NCBI GenBank assembly: GCA_937872225.1 | Contig: CALMRZ010000055.1 | Coordinates: forward strand, 1-46,278 | Direction of reading: 5' to 3' | Source: an uncultured Spirochaetota bacterium | GTDB lineage: Bacteria > Spirochaetota > UBA4802 > UBA5550 | DNA: 46,278 bases | Shown here: one piece after another, positions 9,564 through 20,863 of the stretch | Layout of the letters: every line of letters starts with the position of its first letter | Numbering within the stretch: the stretch's first letter is position 1 | Program-made: the position numbers and the translations under genes | The notes under the pieces: model-generated | Told to the model about the DNA's origin: nothing | The model's database searches: none | The model's input: the letters and a program-made list of their open reading frames with translations, nothing else

Positions 9564-9791
9564 AAAGTGAAAACATCCATTACTTTATCAAAAGAACTAT
9601 TAAAAGAAATTGACAGGATAGTAACCAAATCCGGTAACCGATCGGTTTTTATCGAAGAGGCTGTGAAAGCCTATCTGAAGGGAAAAAAACGGCAGCTTCG
9701 CGGATTGAGGGATATGGAAATTATCAATCAATCATCCGGGGATTTGAACAAAGAGTCTGAAGATATCCTGTCATATCAGGTAAAAGTTTGA
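9561..9791 (+). CDS. Ribbon-helix-helix antitoxin
   Basis: 76 residues. [21 protein letters not shown] is the RHH strand and first helix, and SRSVFIEEA-type sequence ([14 protein letters not shown]) is the second helix. This is the usual N-terminal DNA-binding and dimerisation unit of MazE/ParD-like antitoxins. The acidic tail should neutralise the MazF-like toxin encoded next, whose start overlaps its stop. No Shine-Dalgarno is present; translation may be leaderless. Confidence 0.88.
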
Positions 9792-10114
9792 AACGGGGTG
9801 ATCTGTACCGGGTATATAAAGGATCGAAACAGGATCCGAAGAACTGTCGCGTCTTTGCCGTTGTCAGCAGGCAGGCCTTGATCGAGTCGAAATTTTCCAC
9901 CGTCATGTGCGCCCCGGTATACGGCTCATATCTGGGGATTTCCACCCAGGTGCCGGTCGGCACTGATGAGGGGATGAAGCATAACAGCTGCATTTATTGT
10001 GATGAAATTATCAGCATTCCCAAATCGTCTATCTCGGATTACGTGGGAACCCTATCCGATAACAAAGTTGAAGAGTTAAACAGGGCACTTGCCATCGCGC
10101 TGGACATTGAGTAG
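9788..10114 (+). CDS. MazF/PemK-family endoribonuclease toxin
   Basis: 108 residues. [13 protein letters not shown] is the conserved N-terminal loop, [24 protein letters not shown] the core strands, and [23 protein letters not shown] the C-terminal PemK motif. The start is TTG at 9788, overlapping the antitoxin TGA. The family cleaves mRNA at short motifs in a ribosome-independent way; the specificity here cannot be read from sequence. Confidence 0.92.
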
Positions 10115-10631: not shown

Positions 10632-10930
10632 TATAATGCCTCCCTTTTAATATGGATGATATCAATATTACCTTATTATACAATATTTTTCACTGAATGA
10701 CAATAAGAAATTTAGTAAATATTAAAATATTGATTCGCCGTGGTGCACTGCCGGCTATCGGGGCTGATGCTGCGCCTTGCGGGCGCAATGAACAACGGCG
10801 GTGCGAGGGTGTTGCCGATAAAAAGCCGGGCCGGCGATTTTTATACTTGCGCTTTCCATGCTCCGGTGCCATTATTCATCAATCCCCTGCGGGGTAGACG
10901 GGCGCCAAACACCAATTGAAGAGGAACGCC
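10632..10930. other. Divergent intergenic region, no gene seen
   Basis: About 300 bp between the peroxiredoxin and the first FGGY kinase. The first 100 bp are AT-rich and could carry both promoters. The rest is GC-rich without a convincing ORF or operator. A weak hairpin with flanking A and T runs lies near 10820-10842. Confidence 0.4.
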
Positions 10931-12517
10931 ATGGCAGTCAATGAAAAGTATATCCTGGCGATAGACCTGGGCACCTCGGGCCCGAAGTCCGCCATTATCT
11001 CCACCAATGGAGATGTCATCGACTCCGAGTTCATGGACGTTCCGCTCCAGCTTTTTCCGGGGGGCGGCGCCGAGCAGGACCCCGACGACTGGTGGAACGC
11101 CATCATGGCCACCTCGAAGAAGGTGCTGGCCAGGAAGCTCGTGAAGGCGAGCGACATCGTGGCAGTGTCCTGCACGTCGCAGTGGTCCGGCACGGTCCCG
11201 GTGGACGAGAAGGGAAACCACCTGATGAACGCCATCATCTGGTACGACACGCGCGGCGCCAAGTATATGAAGGACGTGGCCAGGGGCCTCGTCAACGTGG
11301 AGGGCTTCGGTCTCCTCAAGGCCATCCGGTGGGCCTGGCTCACCGGGGCGGTGCCGTCGCCGGCGGGAAAGGACCCCTTCTGCCATATTCTCTACCTCAA
11401 AAATGAGAAGCCCGACATTTACCGCAAGGCCTACAAATTCCTGGAACCGAAGGACTACCTGAACCTGCGCTTCACCGGCAAGTTCTACGCGTCGTACGAT
11501 TCCATCGCCCTGCACTGGGTAACCAACAACCGCGACATCAACAACATCTTTTACGGCAAGAAGCTGATCAAGTGGTCCACCATCGACCCGGCAAAGCTGC
11601 CCGATCTCAAGAAAGCGGTCGAGATCTGCGGGCCCATCAGGCCGGAGATCGCCGACGAGCTGGGCCTTTCCCGCGACGTGGTGGTCGGCATGGGGTGCCC
11701 GGACGTCCACTCCGCGGCGATCGGATCTGGGGCGGTGAAGGACTATGAGGGCCATATCTATATCGGCACTTCATCATGGATCATCTGCCACGTCCCGTTC
11801 AAGAAGACCGACATCTTCAATAACATTGCGTCGCTCCCGTCGGCGCTTCCGGGACGCTACTTCCTGGCAAACGAGCAGGAGACCGCTGGCAAGTGCCTCA
11901 TGTTTCTCCGCGATAACCTGTTCTTCCCCAGGGACCAGGTTTCGAAGGAACCGGCGCCGGCTGGCGTGTACGACCGGTTCAACGCTGCGGTGGCCGAGGT
12001 GCCGCCGGGAAGCCACAAGGTCATGTTCACGCCGTGGCTCTACGGAGAGCGCACGCCCGTCGAGAACGAAACCGTGCGAGGGGCCTTTCTGAACGTGTCC
12101 CTTGACACCACCCGCGCCACCATGGTCCGCGCGGTCTACGAGGGGGTTGCCCTCAACAGCCGCTGGCTCCTGAACTGCGCGGAGAAATTCATAAGGCGGC
12201 CGTTCCCGTATCTCAATTTCATCGGCGGCGGCGCCAATTCCGACGTGTGGAGCCAGATCCTGGCCGACGTCCTCGGCAGGAAGATCCGGCAGGTGAAGGA
12301 CCCGATCACTGCGAACGCCCGCGGCGCGGCGTTCCTCGCGGCCATCTCCCTCGGTTACATAACCGTGGACCAGATTTCCGAGCGGATCGCCATCAAGAAG
12401 GAGTACGAGCCGAATCCCGCGAACAAAAAGATCTATGACGAGCTGTTCGCGGAGTTCGTGAATTTCTACCAGACGAACAAGAAGATGTATCGCAGACTCA
12501 ATAAAAGGGAAGAGTGA
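10931..12517 (+). CDS. FGGY-family carbohydrate kinase, paralogue 1
   Basis: 528 residues from ATG 10931, with GAGG seven bases upstream (a TTG at 10916 would add five residues). N-terminal ATP-phosphate loop ILAIDLGTSGPKSAII, then LFPGGGAEQDPDDWW as in xylulokinases and glycerol kinases. VSCTSQWSGTVPVDEKG and the second domain LNFIGGGANSDVWSQILADVLG (adenosine motif) follow. It should phosphorylate a sugar, polyol or sugar acid. The SPL-like gene starts 3 bp later, so the two are cotranscribed. It is closely similar along its full length to the kinase at 15251, suggesting two successive phosphorylations or two related substrates. Substrate unknown. Confidence 0.88.
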   Translation: MAVNEKYILAIDLGTSGPKSAIISTNGDVIDSEFMDVPLQLFPGGGAEQDPDDWWNAIMATSKKVLARKLVKASDIVAVSCTSQWSGTVPVDEKGNHLMNAIIWYDTRGAKYMKDVARGLVNVEGFGLLKAIRWAWLTGAVPSPAGKDPFCHILYLKNEKPDIYRKAYKFLEPKDYLNLRFTGKFYASYDSIALHWVTNNRDINNIFYGKKLIKWSTIDPAKLPDLKKAVEICGPIRPEIADELGLSRDVVVGMGCPDVHSAAIGSGAVKDYEGHIYIGTSSWIICHVPFKKTDIFNNIASLPSALPGRYFLANEQETAGKCLMFLRDNLFFPRDQVSKEPAPAGVYDRFNAAVAEVPPGSHKVMFTPWLYGERTPVENETVRGAFLNVSLDTTRATMVRAVYEGVALNSRWLLNCAEKFIRRPFPYLNFIGGGANSDVWSQILADVLGRKIRQVKDPITANARGAAFLAAISLGYITVDQISERIAIKKEYEPNPANKKIYDELFAEFVNFYQTNKKMYRRLNKREE

Positions 12518-12520
12518 CCC

Positions 12521-14032
12521 ATGGATATCAAGATCACCACCGTTGAACGCATAATGAAGCGCTTTGACCCGCGCCTGGTCGAGTCCTTCATGAAGCTCCT
12601 GAAATCCTTCTCCCTGACCAGGAACCTGATAAAGTCCCTGGTCCAGAAGGAGGGGACCGCCCTGATGAAAGAGATTGAAGGGGCGCTCAAGCCGTACCGC
12701 GGCTCCGTTCCCGGCTTTGTGGCCCTGCCCGATAAGGGGATGTCCCGGAAGGATATCCTGAACCTGATGAAGGACCTCAGGAAACGCGAGGAGTCGAAGT
12801 GGAAAAAGGGAATGGTCTCCGGCGCCGTGTACCACGGCGACGCCGGCCACGTCGATTTCCTGAACCAGGTATACGCCATCAACTCCCAGGCCAACCCGCT
12901 CCACATGGACGTGTGGCCGAGCATAATCAAGTTCGAGTCCGAGATCGTTTCCATGACCGCCGCCATGCTCGGCGACAGTTCGGCCTGCGGCTCCTTAACC
13001 TCGGGCGGCACGGAAAGCATCCTCATGGCCATGAAGGCATACCGGGACCGGGCCAGGGCGGAGCATGGCATCAGGAAACCGGAGATGATCGTGCCGGTCA
13101 CGGCCCACGCGGCCTTTGACAAGGCGGCCCAGTACTTCAACATAAAGATCATCAAGGTGCCGGTGGATGACCGGTACCGGGCCGACATCGCGGCGGTGAA
13201 GAAGGCGATTTCGCGGCGCACCATCGTCATCGCCGGCTCCGCCCCGTCCTTCCCCCACGGCATGATTGACCCGATCGAGGAACTGTCCGAACTTGCGCGC
13301 AGCAAAAACATAGGCTTCCATACCGATGCATGCCTGGGCGGATTCCTCCTTCCCTGGGTGGAGAAGCTCGGGTACCCGGTGCCGGCTTTCGACTTCCGGC
13401 TTCCCGGCGTCACCTCCATGTCCGCAGACACCCACAAGTACGGGTACGCGGCCAAGGGCACGTCGGTCGTGCTCTACCGCGACACGGACCTCCGCCACTA
13501 CCAGTTCTTCAAGACGCCGGACTGGCCCGGCGGTCTCTATTTCTCGCCGACCATGGCCGGGAGCCGCCCCGGGGCTCTCTCCGCGGCCTGCTGGGCCTCC
13601 ATGGTTTCCATGGGCGAGAAGGGCTATCTGGACGCGGCGAGGAAGATCATGGCCGCCGCGGACAAGATCAGGAAAGGAATCGAGGCCATGCCGGAGCTCT
13701 ATATCCTGGGCGACCCCCTCTGGGTCATCGCCTTTGCCTCGAAAGACCTGAACATATACGGTGTCATGGATTACATGACAAGGAAGGGATGGAGCCTCAA
13801 CGGCCTGCACAAGCCCTCCTGCGTCCATATCTGTGTCACCCTTCGCCACACCCAGCCGGGCCTTGCGGAGCGATTCCTCAGCGATCTCAAGAAGGCCGTC
13901 AGATATGTCCTCAAGAACCCTGACGATAAGGGCGACATGGCCCCCATGTACGGCATGGCGGCTTCATTCCCTGACCGCGGCCTGGTATCCGATGTAATGG
14001 ATATCTACATGGACACGCTGTATAAGGTATGA
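12521..14032 (+). CDS. Sphingosine-1-phosphate-lyase-like PLP-dependent aldolase
   Basis: 503 residues. It resembles eukaryotic SGPL1/Dpl1 and the few bacterial S1P lyases: [50 protein letters not shown] (Asp269 for the PLP nitrogen) and [13 protein letters not shown] (Lys306, the PLP Schiff-base lysine). Known members cleave phospho-amino alcohols by retro-aldol to an aldehyde and phosphoethanolamine. I see no N-terminal membrane anchor like that of the eukaryotic enzymes, but a short amphipathic leader. No sphingolipid genes are nearby; it is cotranscribed with an FGGY kinase, so the substrate may be a phosphorylated amino-polyol or sugar rather than sphingosine phosphate. A related decarboxylase role (group II PLP family) is less likely given the close SPL motifs. 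Confidence 0.85.
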
Positions 14033-14417: not shown

Positions 14418-15053
14418 ATGCCTAAGGCAACCCGAAGCGTGGAAGAAGTTGAAGAGGTGCGCGAAAAGATTCTTGATCGTGCCCTTGAGCTTCTCGTGAA
14501 AGAAGGATTTGAGAGCCTTTCCATGGGCAAGCTCGGCGCCAAGATGAAAATGACCGGCGCCAACCTTTACAACTATTACGCCAACAAGGACGAGCTCCTC
14601 ATAGCGATCCATAAAAAATCGTTCCAGATGATCCACGATAAAATCCGTACGGCCGTGAGCAATGCCTCCGCCCCCCGGGACCGACTCGCCGCGCTGGCCA
14701 AGGCCTTCGTGGAATTCGGCACCGAGCATGTAAATATATACGACATCATGTTCAACAGGCCGATCCGGCAGTACAGCGATTATATCGGGACGCCCCAGGA
14801 AAAAATGTCTTACGAGGAATACCACAACTCGATCAAGGCCCTGGTCTTCGCCGTCACGGTGGTCAGGGATTTCATAGAAACAAGGCCTGAACTGTCGACA
14901 AGCGACCCTAAGTTTTTAACGATAAAATTCCTGAGTGCGCTCCACGGGATCATTTCCCTTAACAACAGCGGCATATTAAAAGAGATGGATGATAATCCCG
15001 ACCTGGTCATGGACGCCATTATTGAAAGCACGATCCGTTCGTTGACGGACTGA
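14418..15053 (+). CDS. TetR-family transcriptional regulator
   Basis: 211 residues. The N-terminal HTH reads REKILDRALELLVKEGFESLSMGKLGAKMKMTGANLYNYYANKDELLIAIHKK, the typical TetR pattern ending in Y-x-Y-F/Y-x-x-K-x-x-L. The C-terminal ligand domain has the WHG-like (TetR_C_33) flavour, but I saw no diagnostic ligand residues. It sits between the two halves of the kinase/SPL/RLP cluster on the same strand and probably controls it in response to substrate or product. Two palindromes upstream (14157, 14210) are candidate operators. Confidence 0.9.
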   Translation: MPKATRSVEEVEEVREKILDRALELLVKEGFESLSMGKLGAKMKMTGANLYNYYANKDELLIAIHKKSFQMIHDKIRTAVSNASAPRDRLAALAKAFVEFGTEHVNIYDIMFNRPIRQYSDYIGTPQEKMSYEEYHNSIKALVFAVTVVRDFIETRPELSTSDPKFLTIKFLSALHGIISLNNSGILKEMDDNPDLVMDAIIESTIRSLTD

Positions 15054-15250: not shown

Positions 15251-16792
15251 ATGACAGGTAGGATGAAGTACGTACTCGCGGTCGACCTGGGAACATCGGG
15301 CCCCAAAACGGCCCTGATATCGATTCACGGCGACGTGGTGACGGACGCCTTCGAGGAGACGCCGATCATCCTCCTTCCCGGCGGCGGCGCGGAACAGGAC
15401 CCCGAGGGGTGGTGGAAGGCCATTATGTCAACGGCGAAGCAGGTCCTCGCCCGTCGGCTGGTGCCTGTCGATGACATCATCGCGGTGAGCGTGACCACCC
15501 AGTGGTCAGGCACCGTGCCGGTAGATGAGAACGGCCATCACCTGATGAACGCAGTTATTTGGATGGACTCCCGCGGAGCCGAGCCCCTCAAGGAAAAGCT
15601 GAACGGCTTTCCGAAATTCGAGGGATACCCCCTGACGCAGGTCTTCACCTGGCTGCGCCTCACGGGAGGAGCGCCGGCCCTCTCCGGCAAGGACTCCATC
15701 AGCCATATCGTATGGATCCAGAAAAACTGCCCGGACATATACCGGAAGACCCACAAGTTCCTCGAGCCGAAAGATTACGTCAACATGCGCCTGACGGGCA
15801 AATTCGCCGCGACCTTCGACTCGATCCTGCTCCACTGGGTCACCGACAACCGGGACCCCGACAATGTCGACTACAGCGACAAGCTCATACGGATGGTCGG
15901 CATAGACCGGGACAAGCTTCCCGACCTGATCCGCGCCGTCGATGTCCTGGGGCCCCTGAAGAAGGACGTTGCCACGGAGCTCGGGCTCAAGCCCGGGACG
16001 CCGGTCATCGGCGGCACGCCGGACGTCCAGTCCGCCTGCGTCGGTTCCGGCGCCGTGCGGGACTACGAGGGCCATGTCTATATCGGCACCTCGTCCTGGA
16101 TAACGGCCCACGTTCCCTTCAAGAGGACCGACCTCCTCCACAGCATGGGCTCCTTCCCGAGCCCGATACCGGGGCGGTACCTGATCCTCACCGAGCAGGA
16201 GTGCGCCGGCAAGTGCCTCATGTGGCTCAGGGACAACGTCCTCTACCACAAGGACGAGCTGCTGCAGCAGGAAAAGGCGCCGGACATCTACAAGGTCATG
16301 GACAGGATCGTGTCCCGCGTCCCGGCCGGGGCCAACAACGTCATTTTCACCCCCTGGCTCTACGGCGAGCGCACCCCGGTGGAGGACCGGCACATCCGGT
16401 CGTCCCTCTTCAACCTTTCCCTGGAGAACACCAGGGAGGACATCGCCCGCGCGGTGTTCGAGGGCGTTGCCCTGAACCAGAAATGGCTCCTCACCTATGT
16501 CGAGAAATTCATGAAGAGGCCCTTCCAGGCCCTCAATTTCATCGGCGGCGGGGCCAACTCCGATGTATGGTCGCAGATACTGGCCGACGTGATGAACACA
16601 ACCATCCGCCAGGTGAAGGACCCGATCTTCTCCAACGCCCGCGGCGTCGCCTTTCTGGCCGCCCTGGCCCTGGGTCATATCACCGTGGAGGACATCTCCC
16701 GGCATATCAAGATAAAGGCGGAGTACAGGCCGAACCCGGACCACCGGAAGATTTACGACAGCCTGTTCCGCGAGTACGTGAACCTGTATTAG
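15251..16792 (+). CDS. FGGY-family carbohydrate kinase, paralogue 2, ended by an amber codon
   Basis: 513 residues from ATG 15251, with AAAGGTG upstream; an internal Met at 15263 begins the conserved MKYVLAVDLGTSG. Same motifs as paralogue 1 (LPGGGAEQDPEGWW, SGTVPVDENG, FIGGGANSDVWSQILADVM), so the same fold and phosphotransfer role on a related substrate. After VNLY the frame meets TAG, then continues open as TQKKACARINSV to a TAA at 16868-16870. Paralogue 1 reads VNFYQTNKKMYRRLN at this place, so the TAG appears to replace a CAG. The lost tail is about 25 residues beyond the last fold motif and the enzyme may remain active. First gene of the kinase-aminotransferase-RLP operon. Confidence 0.88.
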   Translation: MTGRMKYVLAVDLGTSGPKTALISIHGDVVTDAFEETPIILLPGGGAEQDPEGWWKAIMSTAKQVLARRLVPVDDIIAVSVTTQWSGTVPVDENGHHLMNAVIWMDSRGAEPLKEKLNGFPKFEGYPLTQVFTWLRLTGGAPALSGKDSISHIVWIQKNCPDIYRKTHKFLEPKDYVNMRLTGKFAATFDSILLHWVTDNRDPDNVDYSDKLIRMVGIDRDKLPDLIRAVDVLGPLKKDVATELGLKPGTPVIGGTPDVQSACVGSGAVRDYEGHVYIGTSSWITAHVPFKRTDLLHSMGSFPSPIPGRYLILTEQECAGKCLMWLRDNVLYHKDELLQQEKAPDIYKVMDRIVSRVPAGANNVIFTPWLYGERTPVEDRHIRSSLFNLSLENTREDIARAVFEGVALNQKWLLTYVEKFMKRPFQALNFIGGGANSDVWSQILADVMNTTIRQVKDPIFSNARGVAFLAALALGHITVEDISRHIKIKAEYRPNPDHRKIYDSLFREYVNLY

Positions 16793-16891: not shown

Positions 16892-18295
16892 ATGGAATAC
16901 AATGAAATAATGTCGCGGTTCAAGAATGTCCTATCCATACCGCCCAAAGGATTACCGGCGGATGCGATGGAAAAGTACCGCGCGATGTACACGGAAAAGA
17001 ACAGGAAGTCCCTGGAGATGTTCGAAAAGGCGAAGAGCGTCATCCCCGGCGGGGTCGAGCACAACCTGAGCCAGAACCACCCCTTCCCGGTGGCAATGGA
17101 CCGCGCCAAGGGCTACCGGGTCTGGGACGTCGACGGCAACGAGTACGTTGATTACCTGATGTGCGGAGCGCCCATCATACTCGGCCATGCCTTCGAACCG
17201 CTGGACGAAAAGATCATCGACATCATCAAGACAAAGGGACCGGCCACGGGCCTCACCTCGGAGTACGAGATCATGGCCGCCCAGGAGATCGTCAACCACA
17301 TGCCGGCGGTCGAGATGGTCCGGTTCCTCCAGTCGGGCACCGAGGCGGACATGGCGGCTCTCCGCATCGCCCGGGCGTACACCAACAAGCAGAAGATCAT
17401 CAAGATCGGCGGCAGCTACCACGGCTGGTCTGACCAGATGGTCTATTCGCTCCACGTTCCCAATTCCGGTCCCCTCTATTCGAAGGGGATCACGAAGGAA
17501 AGCTACGCCCATATCATTGACGTGAAGCCGAACGACTTCGACGGCCTGGAAAAGGCCTTCAGGGACAACGCCGATGACGTGGCCGGGGTCATCGTGGAGC
17601 CGATCGGCGGAGAGTCAGGCGCGCATCCGGTCCATCCCGACTGGAACAGGACCATGAGGGCCCTGTGCGACCAGTACAAGTCCCTCCTCATTTTCGACGA
17701 GGTGGTCACCGGCTTCAGGCTCGACATGGGTGGCGCCCAGAAGCATTTCAACGTCATGCCTGACATTACCGTCCTCGGCAAGATCATCGGCCACGGCTAT
17801 CCCTCCTGCGGCGCCGTCGCCGGCCGGAAGGAAGTCATGAAGGTATGCGCCGGCGGGCTGGGCGAAAAGATATACGTCGGCGGAACACTGGCGGCGAACC
17901 CGATCACCACGGCGGCCTGCTACTACGCCATCAAGTACATGGTGGAGCACGACGCTCAGCAGAAGGCCGCGGCCTACGCCGACCGCCTCACGAAGGCGAT
18001 GAACGATCTCTTTGCCACGCGGCAGGACCTGGGATTCTTCGTCTACAATTTCGGTCCCATCATGCACTACGTGACAACGGGATTCTTCTCGGTGGATGTT
18101 TCCGCCCCCGACGCGCTGAAGCAGGTCCTTACCCGCAAGGCGGTCGCGGACAGCTACCAGATCGTGACCTCGGCCCTGGGGCTCTGCTCCCTGGCCGGAA
18201 CGAGGATGTACACCTGCATGCAGCACGATGACGAAGCGCTGAAAAAGACCCTGGATATCTGGGAGCAGCTGCTCTCGGCGATACCGAAGGGTTAA
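16892..18295 (+). CDS. Class III PLP aminotransferase, glutamate-1-semialdehyde-aminomutase-like
   Basis: 467 residues after a strong AAGGAGG. SVIPGGVEHNLSQNHPFPVAMDRAKGYRVWDVDGNEYVDYL is the GSA-aminomutase-type N-terminus. VRFLQSGTEADMAALRIARAYT and SYHGWSD bind the cofactor phosphate, LLIFDEVVTGFR contains the PLP-pyridine aspartate, and ITVLGKIIGHGYPSCGAVAGR holds the Schiff-base lysine. It either transfers an amino group or shifts it within the substrate. It is not expected to be HemL, because no tetrapyrrole genes are near and it sits in an operon with an FGGY kinase and a RuBisCO-like protein. The substrate is probably a phosphorylated or oxo carbon compound of that pathway. Confidence 0.87.
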   Translation: MEYNEIMSRFKNVLSIPPKGLPADAMEKYRAMYTEKNRKSLEMFEKAKSVIPGGVEHNLSQNHPFPVAMDRAKGYRVWDVDGNEYVDYLMCGAPIILGHAFEPLDEKIIDIIKTKGPATGLTSEYEIMAAQEIVNHMPAVEMVRFLQSGTEADMAALRIARAYTNKQKIIKIGGSYHGWSDQMVYSLHVPNSGPLYSKGITKESYAHIIDVKPNDFDGLEKAFRDNADDVAGVIVEPIGGESGAHPVHPDWNRTMRALCDQYKSLLIFDEVVTGFRLDMGGAQKHFNVMPDITVLGKIIGHGYPSCGAVAGRKEVMKVCAGGLGEKIYVGGTLAANPITTAACYYAIKYMVEHDAQQKAAAYADRLTKAMNDLFATRQDLGFFVYNFGPIMHYVTTGFFSVDVSAPDALKQVLTRKAVADSYQIVTSALGLCSLAGTRMYTCMQHDDEALKKTLDIWEQLLSAIPKG

Positions 18296-18330
18296 GATAA
18301 ATTTTTATTAATCAAAAGAAGGAGGCGTAT

Positions 18331-19665
18331 ATGAGTAAGGAAAAAAATGTGTGCGAACCGATAGATCTCTATTCCGATAAGCCGATAGCGATTCCCGAGG
18401 CGATCGACATGGAGAATCATGTGATCGCCACCTACTGGATCCAGGCCGACAGGGGCATGGATATGTCGATAATCGGTCAGGTACTTGCCGTTGAGCAGAC
18501 TACCGGGACCTGGACGCCGGTGCCGGGAGAGACCCCGGCGATACGGTGCAAGCACGTGGCAAAGGTAATCGGCGTGTACGAGGCGCCCTACTATGAATAT
18601 GCGGTGCCGGCGGATGTTACCACGCGGCAGTACATATTGCAGATCGCCTTTCCCTCGATCAATGTCGAGGACCAGCTCCCGATGATGCTGACCGCGGTCA
18701 TCGGCAACATCTCCATGGTGCCCAATTTCAAGCTCCTGGACATCAGGCTCCCCAAGGCCACCCTGGACCAGTACAACGGGCCGAAGTTCGGCATCGACGG
18801 CTGGTGGAAGGCCCTGGGCCTGCAGAAGGGGCGTCCCCTTCTCAACAACATGATCAAACCCTGCAGCGGTTATCCGCTGGAAGTGGGCGCCGAGCTCTTC
18901 AGACAGGCGGCCCTGGGCGGCTGCGACGTCATCAAGGACGACGAGCTTATCGCCAACATGCGCTACAACGACGCGGTTGAGCGGGTCAAGACCTACATGA
19001 AGATAGAGAAAGAGGTATTCGAGGAGACCGGCGAGCACACCCTGTATACGGTAAACGTCACCGACCGTCTGCCGCGGATGTTCGACCTGGCCAAGCGGTG
19101 CATCGACGCCGGCGCCAACGCCATGATGGTCAACTACCTGGCGGTCGGCCCCGAGGCGATGCGCGCCCTGGCCGACGATCCGAACATCAATGTGCCGATC
19201 CTGGCCCACATGGACGTGGCCGGAGCCTACTACATGTCGCCGAATCAGGGGATTGCATCGCCTGTCGTGTTCGGCAAGTTTTCGCGGCTCTGCGGCGCCG
19301 ACTCCATCGTGCTTCCCTTCTCCATGGGGGGCAAGGCTTTCTACATGCACGACCGCTTCATGGCCACGTGCCGCAACCTGACCTATCCGATGGGGAACCT
19401 GAAACCCACCATGCCGATGCCGTCTGGCGGGATCACGCCGCAGAACGTGAACGACATCATGAACGCCCTCGGCAGGGATATCATGATCGGCTCCGGCGGC
19501 GGGGTCCATGCCCACCCGATGGGACCGCGGGCCGGCGCCCGGGCTCTCCGCCAGGCCATCGACGCCTCCATGCAGTGCATCAAGCTGGAGGATTACGCCA
19601 AGGACCACGAGGAACTGGGCAGGGCCATCGGCACATGGGGCAAGAAGACGGATTTCAAACTCTAA
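18331..19665 (+). CDS. RuBisCO-like protein (form IV)
   Basis: 444 residues after a very strong GAAGGAGG. The RuBisCO large-subunit order is intact: VEQTTGTW (Glu55, Thr60, Trp61), IGNIS (Asn126), MIKPCSG (Lys176), IKDDE (Lys202, Asp204, Glu205), AHMDVAG (His293), FGKF (Lys316), PSGG (Ser365) and GSGGGVHAHP. By eye the carbamate lysine and Mg ligands are kept, but the positions of RuBisCO Lys177, Arg295 and His327 are Cys178, Met294 and Ala309. It is therefore not a carboxylase but probably an enolising, isomerising or transcarboxylase-type enzyme on a phosphorylated oxo compound. Known RLPs act in methionine salvage and in apionate catabolism; the neighbours here fit neither. Last gene before a terminator. 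Confidence 0.88.
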   Translation: MSKEKNVCEPIDLYSDKPIAIPEAIDMENHVIATYWIQADRGMDMSIIGQVLAVEQTTGTWTPVPGETPAIRCKHVAKVIGVYEAPYYEYAVPADVTTRQYILQIAFPSINVEDQLPMMLTAVIGNISMVPNFKLLDIRLPKATLDQYNGPKFGIDGWWKALGLQKGRPLLNNMIKPCSGYPLEVGAELFRQAALGGCDVIKDDELIANMRYNDAVERVKTYMKIEKEVFEETGEHTLYTVNVTDRLPRMFDLAKRCIDAGANAMMVNYLAVGPEAMRALADDPNINVPILAHMDVAGAYYMSPNQGIASPVVFGKFSRLCGADSIVLPFSMGGKAFYMHDRFMATCRNLTYPMGNLKPTMPMPSGGITPQNVNDIMNALGRDIMIGSGGGVHAHPMGPRAGARALRQAIDASMQCIKLEDYAKDHEELGRAIGTWGKKTDFKL

Positions 19666-19680
19666 TCCGGTTTTCACATC

Positions 19681-19712
19681 CTGCGGGGGACCTGGTCCCC
19701 CGCAGGTTTTTG
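19681..19712 (+). terminator. Rho-independent terminator after the RuBisCO-like gene
   Basis: Perfect 11-bp stem CTGCGGGGGAC/GTCCCCCGCAG with a 3-base CTG loop (19681-19705), then GTTTTTG. It closes the kinase-aminotransferase-RLP operon. Confidence 0.92.
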
Positions 19713-19742
19713 AATATGCGCGCAAAAAGTTGCGCGCATATT
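19713..19742. terminator. Second hairpin in tandem
   Basis: 13-bp perfect inverted repeat AATATGCGCGCAA/TTGCGCGCATATT with an AAAG loop, immediately behind the first terminator and followed by GTTTAT. It may act as a back-up terminator or stabilise RNA ends. The next gene starts 18 bp later. Confidence 0.7.
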
Positions 19743-19759
19743 GTTTATACAAGCAGAGG

Positions 19760-20863
19760 ATGATAAGACCTGTGTTTCTTCATGATGACCGGCGTCTTCC
19801 CCTGGCATGGGCGCCATGGTTTTCCCATGAGTACATCAATTACTACGCTGTCCAGGCCCTGCCGGTGCTGATGGCGCTGCCGCCGGTCCCGGTGCGGCAG
19901 GATTCCGGTCCCGATGACGAAGCGTGGCCTCCGGGTCCAAACCATGTTGACCTGTACCGGGAGCGCTACACCGATGCGCGCCGCCTGGATCCGCTCCGGT
20001 CCTTTGATTACGCGGCAAAGAACGGGGATTTCAGCAGGGAGGCGCCCCTCCATGCGATCATCGAGCCGTGGAAGGTTCTGGTCGGATACAGCACCGAGCC
20101 GGACCTTAACCTTGATTGCGACCTTGTTCTCGACAAACGCCAGAAACTCACCGGCGGCTCCCACGGCTGGCGCCACATGGAGTTCCGTGTCTTCGGGATG
20201 AAGATCGGGATTGTCCGTGAGTCGTTACGGCATCACCGTGACCGGGCGCGGAAGGCCTTTAATGACGGCAATGATTACTGGGGATGGCGGTACCTTTCGC
20301 GCTGCACCCATTACCTCGCGGACATGGGGAATCCGTTCCATGTCAAGGCCCTGCCGGCGATGTATCTTCTCAGGCACATCGCCTCGGCCCGGGACCTCTT
20401 CACGACCGTGTCGGCGGTTCATAAAAGCTACGAGCTGTACGTCGAGCGAAGGTTTAGGGAAGGATTCGCTCCCTTCGGTAATGCCCTGGCCCGGGGGGCC
20501 GCGGAGGGGATGCGGTCCGGGACCGGTGACGAACGGGCCCTGGCCGGGTATACGGGAAGGGCTGCGAAGCGCCTCGATCCGATATTCAATTTTTTCCTTA
20601 ACAGCTATGGAAGCGGGCTCGTTGACGTGTTCAGGCACGGGGGTTCCGCGGGACGCGAGGACGCGTCGTTTCTGGTCAGCCGGTGCGCAGTCGAAGCGTC
20701 CCGGATCATCTTCAGCGGTTCCGGGTCATCCGCCCTGGCTGACCTTGACGGGATTACCGCGGACATCCTCCGCGATGTGGGGGCCATGCTGGGGGCGCTT
20801 CTTTCCGGGTTTTCCGGAGAGCGGGCAGTCGCCAGAGAAGGCGCGTTCCGGCGTTCCCTGTGA
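19760..20863 (+). CDS. Zinc-dependent phospholipase C / S1-P1-nuclease-like protein
   Basis: 367 residues from ATG 19760; GTG 19772 is an alternative with better spacing from AGAGG. Metal-site motifs of the Zn-PLC/P1 fold are visible: APWFSHE near 18-24, GGSHGWRHMEF (His135, His139) and RCTHYLADMGNPFHVKAL (His184, Asp188, His194). The latter matches the H-x-x-x-D-x-x-x-P-x-H pattern. No classical signal peptide precedes the first motif, although the family is usually exported and the N-terminal Trp is often exposed by cleavage. It may hydrolyse phosphodiesters of lipids or nucleotides. It is separated from the RLP operon by two hairpins, so a link to that pathway is only suggestive. Confidence 0.65.
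   Translation: MIRPVFLHDDRRLPLAWAPWFSHEYINYYAVQALPVLMALPPVPVRQDSGPDDEAWPPGPNHVDLYRERYTDARRLDPLRSFDYAAKNGDFSREAPLHAIIEPWKVLVGYSTEPDLNLDCDLVLDKRQKLTGGSHGWRHMEFRVFGMKIGIVRESLRHHRDRARKAFNDGNDYWGWRYLSRCTHYLADMGNPFHVKALPAMYLLRHIASARDLFTTVSAVHKSYELYVERRFREGFAPFGNALARGAAEGMRSGTGDERALAGYTGRAAKRLDPIFNFFLNSYGSGLVDVFRHGGSAGREDASFLVSRCAVEASRIIFSGSGSSALADLDGITADILRDVGAMLGALLSGFSGERAVAREGAFRRSL

Follow-up and report, generated by a model that had tools for sequence, protein, structure and literature searches.

A RuBisCO-like protein encoded in a gene cassette proposed for sphingolipid catabolism in an uncultured Spirochaetota bacterium

Introduction

The window analysed here, a 46,278-nucleotide stretch from the genome of an uncultured Spirochaetota bacterium (contig CALMRZ010000055.1), contains a gene for a RuBisCO-like protein (RLP) within a cassette of enzyme genes that probably belongs to sphingolipid catabolism, a reading to which we assign a probability of about 0.7. 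We would give roughly even odds to the narrower proposal that the RLP acts as an enolase or isomerase in sphingoid-base catabolism, its most likely substrate being a long-chain 1-phospho-2-oxo-3-hydroxyalkane derived from a sphingoid base. RLPs of known function act on methylthioribose or branched-sugar metabolites, and a literature search found no paper dealing with both a RuBisCO-like protein and sphingosine. Two lines of evidence bear on the function of this RLP, its operon context and its active-site residues, and the operon context is the stronger of the two.

Results

The RLP Gene Encodes a Form IV RuBisCO Homolog

The RLP gene (positions 18331 to 19665, plus strand) is a complete open reading frame coding for 444 amino acids and has its own ribosome-binding site (AAGGAGG) upstream of the ATG start codon. 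Pfam domains RuBisCO_large (PF00016, 4.6e-44) and RuBisCO_large_N (PF02788, 1.4e-10) span its full length, and it is the only PF00016 protein of the source genome. Proteins of about 780 amino acids with weak PF00016 matches scored under the cut-off and were set aside. A 486-amino-acid open frame lies antisense to the gene (18292 to 19752, minus strand); nothing supports it as a gene, and it was attributed to the codon bias of the GC-rich RLP gene. The RLP is 81–88% identical to 17 relatives in other genomes, and its nearest solved structures are the MtnW-type proteins 4nas and 2zvi (31–35% identity). A Foldseek search with the RLP model ranked MtnW, a Chlorobium RLP and form III Rubiscos highest (E ~1e-29).

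The protein combines both RuBisCO large-chain domains and the K202/D204/E205 set with the replacement of essential Rubisco residues, as is characteristic of form IV. It does not qualify as a bona fide RubisCO of forms I–III, since the equivalents of K177, R295 and H327 are gone and model TIGR03326 scored 244 bits against a cut-off of 497. The best NCBIfam model was NF007095 with 328 bits, below its MtnW cut-off of 409 bits; the second MtnW model, TIGR03332, gave 282 against 513.6, and the OiaX model NF042437 gave 177 bits against 700.

The Active Site Retains One Phosphate Site of Rubisco and Has Lost the Other

For residue assignment, the protein was aligned by MAFFT L-INS-i with solved RLPs and with spinach Rubisco, whose numbering served as reference. 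An initial annotation of this DNA, made from the sequence by eye, had proposed that the RLP keeps the carbamate and metal triad, and the alignment bore this out: Lys202 (codon 18934 to 18936, plus strand) corresponds to the carbamylated Lys201 of Rubisco, and the neighboring Asp204 and Glu205 correspond to D203 and E204. The further residues that it had listed as retained, Glu55, Asn126, Lys176 and His293, aligned with E60, N123, K175 and H294, and the losses of Lys177 and Arg295 were also confirmed, their positions being occupied by Cys178 (codon 18862 to 18864, plus strand) and Met294 (codon 19210 to 19212, plus strand). His327 is lost as well, but its equivalent is Val327 (codon 19309 to 19311, plus strand) and not Ala309 as first assigned, and Lys316, taken at that time for an active-site lysine, aligns with spinach K316, which is no active-site residue. 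In all, nine of these 11 residue calls agreed with the alignment and two were wrong. The equivalent of the loop-6 Lys334 is Lys335 (codon 19333 to 19335, plus strand; motif GGK), which is retained, as are Thr60/Trp61 (T65/W66), Ser365-Gly366-Gly367 (S379-G381) and Gly389-Gly390 (G403-G404). Further replacements are Ala297 for H298 and Met174 for T173. Nearly all active-site residues are invariant among the 16 closest sequences, and close relatives share them with the exception of a few that have Gly at Ala297 and of a 67% identical relative (L071) with Asn at Cys178. Because almost all sampled RLPs have lost Lys177, Cys178 alone is not diagnostic of the clade.

When a bisphosphate is bound to Rubisco, T65, W66, K334, G381, G403 and G404 hold its P1 phosphate, and R295 and H327 hold P2. 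All residues of the P1 set are present in the RLP (T60, W61, K335, G367, G389 and G390), whereas the P2 set and its neighbor H298 are replaced by Met294, Val327 and Ala297, so that a monophosphate substrate with an apolar tail would be expected. The residue pattern thus fits a monophosphate with a hydrophobic tail. It had also been suggested that retention of the KDDE set means enolisation without carboxylation. This does not follow, because the equivalents of Lys334, Glu60 and Asn123, which aid CO2 addition in Rubisco, are all kept. An AlphaFold model of the RLP, built with 16 close relatives, reached a pLDDT of 58, with residues 294–367 under 50 and poor quality near loop 6; this low confidence is due to the shallow alignment and is not evidence for a disordered active site. 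Accordingly, the active-site overlay was done on the sequence.

The RLP Belongs to a Separate Clade Found in More Than One Phylum

Trees were built from 72 rows and then, more carefully, from 44 rows, with YkrW, Photo, DeepYkr and OiaX-type sequences as references and with support given as bootstrap/SH-aLRT. Both trees placed the RLP in a clade of its own, with support of 100/100. The YkrW references formed a separate clade (100/99), and the Photo (1ykw, 2qyg), DeepYkr and OiaX-type references each formed a clade of their own, the RLP lying outside all of them. It also lacks the His that DeepYkr proteins have at the E204 position, and it differs from the OiaX type (OiaX and its relatives being presumably IV-NonPhoto) in lacking Arg295 and in having an FGGY kinase as partner instead of a four-carbon acid sugar kinase. 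None of the sampled reference clades with a defined substrate included the RLP. The new RLP clade foreseen in the initial annotation is therefore upheld with respect to YkrW, Photo, DeepYkr and OiaX-type proteins, but with IV-GOS, IV-AMC and EnvOnly left out of the tree its novelty is not fully proven. The RLP is a well-conserved member of a clade not represented among the sampled references.

Clade members come from Spirochaetota and from genomes labelled Thermodesulfobacteriota or Myxococcota, with a 67% identical member outermost, and they are 77–88% identical across Spirochaetota and syntrophic or sulfate-reducing "Deltaproteobacteria." Smithella relatives are interspersed in the tree with those from the genus of the window, a pattern indicative of gene transfer across phyla. 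No RLP is encoded in four genomes of that genus. Outer relatives, 42–51% identical, adjoin ABC sugar or DctP transporters and in one locus (L107) an OiaK-like kinase, and hence the ancestral substrate may be a sugar. A separate RLP lineage was observed in a Spirochaetota family (f10; L028 and L029), with Lys at K177, Asn at R295 and Ser at K334.

The RLP Gene Lies in a Conserved Cassette

Upstream of the RLP gene and in the same direction lie genes for a TetR-family regulator (14418 to 15053; Pfam TetR_N, 6.1e-10), an FGGY kinase identified by Pfam (FGGY2, 15251 to 16792) and a class III aminotransferase similar to GSA aminomutase (16892 to 18295; Pfam Aminotran_3, 7.3e-57), which contains the PLP lysine motif and has GSAM 5hdm as its nearest solved structure (1e-67). 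The gene downstream, orf7 (19760 to 20863, plus strand), had no Pfam match. Its model resembled Bacillus cereus phospholipase C (PLC; 1p5x/1ah7) with a Z score of 14.2 over about 212 residues at 3.3 Å, unrelated folds scoring Z < 4, and the metal-ligand spacing H184-x3-D188-x5-H194 plus H221-x3-E225 is invariant in 12 homologues. On the modeled fold and its zinc ligands, orf7 is assigned as a predicted protein of the zinc-dependent phospholipase C/P1-nuclease fold.

This arrangement recurs in other genomes. FGGY2 has a 68–74% identical copy adjoining the RLP gene in 15 of the 17 related loci, the aminotransferase a 71–82% identical copy in 14 and orf7 a counterpart in 12, and a 53–60% identical TetR gene occurs in 11. 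An MFS transporter, distantly similar to sugar-acid transporters, and a class II aldolase, which among NCBIfam models matches those of L-fuculose- and ribulose-1-phosphate aldolases best, also recur at RLP loci. A genome of the same genus (G042) has the entire seven-gene order of the window at 65–93% identity.

Several loci depart from this pattern or add to it. Two Smithellaceae loci (L016 and L017) carry a core-clade RLP and orf7 together with a different gene set on the opposite strand, which codes for a GlpD-like FAD dehydrogenase, a further FGGY kinase, a protein with an SCP2 domain and a distant class III aminotransferase. Smithella-type loci L157 (6462–9143) and L159 (10025–12691) code for an 893-amino-acid fusion of FGGY kinase and D-2-hydroxyacid dehydrogenase adjoining the class II aldolase. 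An Amidohydro_3 (D-aminoacylase-like) protein adjoins the aldolase in L003 (12329–14879), L011 (11894–14499) and L012 (10475–13031) and is a candidate for an alternative ceramide deacylase; sulfatase-superfamily proteins adjoining the cassette in L002 (11180–12973) and L007 (4701–6152) are possible head-group hydrolases. In G640 (L105, 7566–12658), the gene for a 67% identical RLP is flanked on one side by those for an MtnX-like HAD phosphatase (2.8e-41) and an FGGY kinase and on the other by that for a flavoprotein of the geranylgeranyl-reductase family. Its RLP and phosphatase are possibly an MtnW-MtnX-like pair outside methionine salvage. In the window itself, a PemK/MazF-like toxin-family protein (9788 to 10114, plus strand; PF02452, 3.2e-10) is encoded upstream of the cassette.

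Sphingolipid Genes Occur Beside the Cassette and Its Paralogues

A second FGGY kinase, FGGY1 (10916 to 12517, plus strand; Pfam FGGY_N/C), is a putative sphingoid-base kinase. Three bases downstream of it lies a gene (12521 to 14032, plus strand) whose product is a PLP decarboxylase by Pfam. Phmmer identified this protein as a PLP-dependent sphingosine-1-phosphate (S1P) lyase, with matches to the Symbiobacterium enzyme 3mad (E 2.5e-188) and human SGPL1 (4q6r, E 7e-134) against only 1.5e-30 for MfnA-type decarboxylases, and the HKYG lysine motif is present. The FGGY-lyase pair was also found in G107, G122 and G640 and on another contig (C46) of the source genome. FGGY1 and FGGY2 are 58% identical, and FGGY2 groups with the lyase-paired FGGY kinases (SH-aLRT 99, 56–60% identity), a kinship that makes a substrate of the same kind likely for it. 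Not all RLP genomes have the S1P lyase, and it adjoins the cassette only in the window's genus.

Full-length neutral ceramidase genes (E ~1e-147 to 1e-153) lie about 5–10 kb from the RLP gene on the same contig in G307 and G298, the only ones with a ceramidase that strong among 395 genomes of that phylum. A ceramidase adjoins the cassette in only two of the 17 loci. Association of full-length ceramidase with the RLP in the 395 genomes gave a Fisher value of 4.6e-4, which shared ancestry inflates. When any ceramidase match (PF04734) was counted, the association in the same sample was weak (2 of 9 RLP genomes against 17 of 386, p 0.065), so that only full-length ceramidases and adjacency are informative. 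The source genome also contains a sister cluster devoid of the RLP (G000:C16:46001-65000; L149 1663–12847), with genes for a neutral ceramidase (2.6e-153), an AraC/GAF regulator, an FGGY kinase, a class II aldolase, an MFS transporter and a GSA-type aminotransferase 45% identical to that of the window. This cluster is conserved in G042, G107 and G135. Members of the same genus carry the ceramidase-aldolase cluster but no RLP, so this route does not require it.

The class II aldolase was found in 20 of the 22 core-RLP genomes checked, and no close copy was found in outer-RLP genomes. At a threshold of E ≤ 1e-55 in the sample of 395 genomes (9 core-RLP and 386 others), it was present in 8 of the 9 and in 14 of the 386 (Fisher 2e-10, inflated by shared ancestry). 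Aldolase and any ceramidase co-occurred in 9 of 22 genomes against 10 of 373 (p 6e-8, likewise inflated by common descent). Phylogenetic non-independence weakens all of these Fisher tests.

Proposed Pathway

The link of the RLP to sphingoid bases can be strongly inferred from this context. From the protein families, the conserved gene order, the co-occurrence, the kinase kinship and the active-site residues, we infer which substrates are used, in what order the steps occur and what the RLP catalyses, as follows. Ceramide would be deacylated by ceramidase, and the FGGY-type kinase would phosphorylate C1 of the released sphingoid base. FGGY kinases are known to act on sugars; we know of none that acts on long-chain bases, and a literature search on this RLP clade and on sphingoid-base phosphorylation by FGGY kinases gave no relevant result. 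The GSA-type aminotransferase would then convert the C2 amine to a ketone, yielding R-CH(OH)-CO-CH2-O-phosphate, which chemically would equal C1–C3 of ribulose bisphosphate extended by an alkyl tail. The RLP, with carbamylated Lys202 and Mg2+ on Asp204/Glu205, would remove the C3 proton to form a 2,3-enediolate that is re-protonated, and the outcome may be a moved ketone or an inverted C3 (isomerase or epimerase) or else enolase action. An MtnX-like phosphatase beside the RLP of G640 fits an enol or enolone product, as in enolase-type pathways. Finally, the chain would be broken to DHAP and a fatty aldehyde by the class II aldolase, in the case of a C4-hydroxylated base, or by other enzymes. 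In a first version of the pathway, the aldolase cut deaminated sphinganine phosphate directly; this was rejected since that compound is an alpha-ketol without a beta-hydroxyl. Class II aldolase cleavage of such a ketol needs a C4 hydroxyl, as in phytosphingosine, and thus the aldolase step needs a C4-hydroxylated base. In a parallel branch, the S1P lyase beside FGGY1 would cut the un-transaminated base phosphate directly to give phosphoethanolamine.

Discussion

The closest solved relatives of the RLP are the YkrW/MtnW enzymes (2oek, 2zvi and 4nas), which share with it the metal triad and the loss of Arg295 and His327, and whose substrate is a monophosphate with a hydrophobic tail, as proposed here. 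It differs from them in its separate clade, in Asn at position 123, in keeping Glu60 and the loop-6 Lys, and in having no methionine-salvage genes nearby. The DeepYkr protein RLP1 of Rhodospirillum and Rhodopseudomonas is a 5-methylthioribulose-1-phosphate 1,3-isomerase (PMC5893883). Both proteins would enolise a 1-phospho-2-ketose carrying a hydrophobic tail, but DeepYkr belongs to another clade and has His at Glu204 and Arg at Lys334. We propose that the RLP would work much as these monophosphate-using enzymes do, yet it is a member of neither group. With OiaX, the 3-oxo-isoapionate-4-phosphate decarboxylase, it shares coupling to a kinase and the loop-6 Lys, whereas OiaX-type proteins keep Arg295 and are coupled to the four-carbon acid sugar kinase family. 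Adjacency of S1P lyase and kinase recalls the sphingosine kinase and S1P lyase route of eukaryotes and of bacterial lyases that include StSPL from Symbiobacterium, from which the window differs by an FGGY kinase in place of one of the diacylglycerol-kinase family and by a proposed second branch through transaminase and RLP. The nearest analogue at the level of the system is the DHAP shunt of methionine salvage, in which a kinase or phosphorylase, an isomerase and the class II aldolase Ald2 yield DHAP and an aldehyde (PMC5893883). The same logic is proposed for the cassette, except that nitrogen would leave through transamination and the tail would consist of a lipid chain.

A cassette for a small polar amino-polyol or sugar derivative can be modeled on the DHAP shunts for 5-methylthioribose and 5-deoxyribose, with a ketose-1-phosphate produced and isomerised by the FGGY kinase, the aminotransferase and the RLP and then split by the aldolase into DHAP and a short aldehyde. 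Members of the FGGY and class II aldolase families classically act on sugars, the sugar-phosphate aldolase models and the sugar-acid-like MFS transporter agree with such a substrate, and so do the transporters and the OiaK-like kinase beside the outer relatives; for the wider RLP family a sugar substrate is a live rival. For the cassette we consider it unlikely, given the lipid genes, namely the ceramidase beside the cassette or its paralogue, the S1P lyase beside the sister kinase and the PLC-fold orf7, and given the hydrophobic P2-site replacements. Identity with the YkrW-type 2,3-diketo-5-methylthiopentyl-1-phosphate enolase of methionine salvage is decidedly improbable. The best model and best solved relatives are those of MtnW, and an MtnX-like phosphatase adjoins the RLP in G640, but the scores lie under both MtnW cut-offs, and the RLP lies outside the YkrW clade. 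All YkrW references have the general-base Lys at the position of N123, where the RLP has Asn126 and all core relatives have Asn; Glu stands where YkrW has Gly60, and loop 6 has Lys instead of Ser. Neither mtnK, mtnX nor mtnB was found in the cassette or among the genes conserved across the 17 loci, the sole MtnX-like phosphatase being that of the G640 locus. Score, clade placement, catalytic residue and gene neighborhood thus all spoke against a methionine-salvage role, which was rejected.

There is little chance that the RLP is a carboxylase, adding CO2 to the 2,3-enediolate of a deaminated sphingoid-base 1-phosphate to give 3-phosphoglycerate and a fatty acid. Such a reaction would explain the cleavage of the alpha-ketol; the C1–C3 part of the proposed substrate would equal that of RuBP, and the equivalents of Lys175, Lys201, Asp203/Glu204, His294, Lys334, Glu60, Asn123 and Ser379 are all present. 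Against it, Lys177, invariant in the sampled bona fide Rubiscos, is Cys, and Arg295 and His327 are gone; we know of no carboxylating RLP. That the protein is catalytically dead, with a regulatory or structural role, is hardly credible: three Rubisco active-site residues are missing, but the metal and carbamate residues and the loop-6 Lys are invariant over at least two phyla at 77–88% identity, and the gene lies within an enzyme operon.

The sphingolipid reading suggests that relatives of Rubisco also help anaerobic bacteria to use sphingolipids, which in Black Sea sediments have been reported to make up about 20% of lipids (PMC12619533). If true, an RLP in a lipid pathway would add a new role to those of the Rubisco fold, one that the gene order opens to direct testing. 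Were the carboxylase reading to hold, the protein would be a "lipid Rubisco," with CO2 fixation inside lipid degradation. The proposed pathway would, if correct, outline anaerobic sphingolipid breakdown in syntrophs and spirochetes, with FGGY-type kinases replacing sphingosine kinases.
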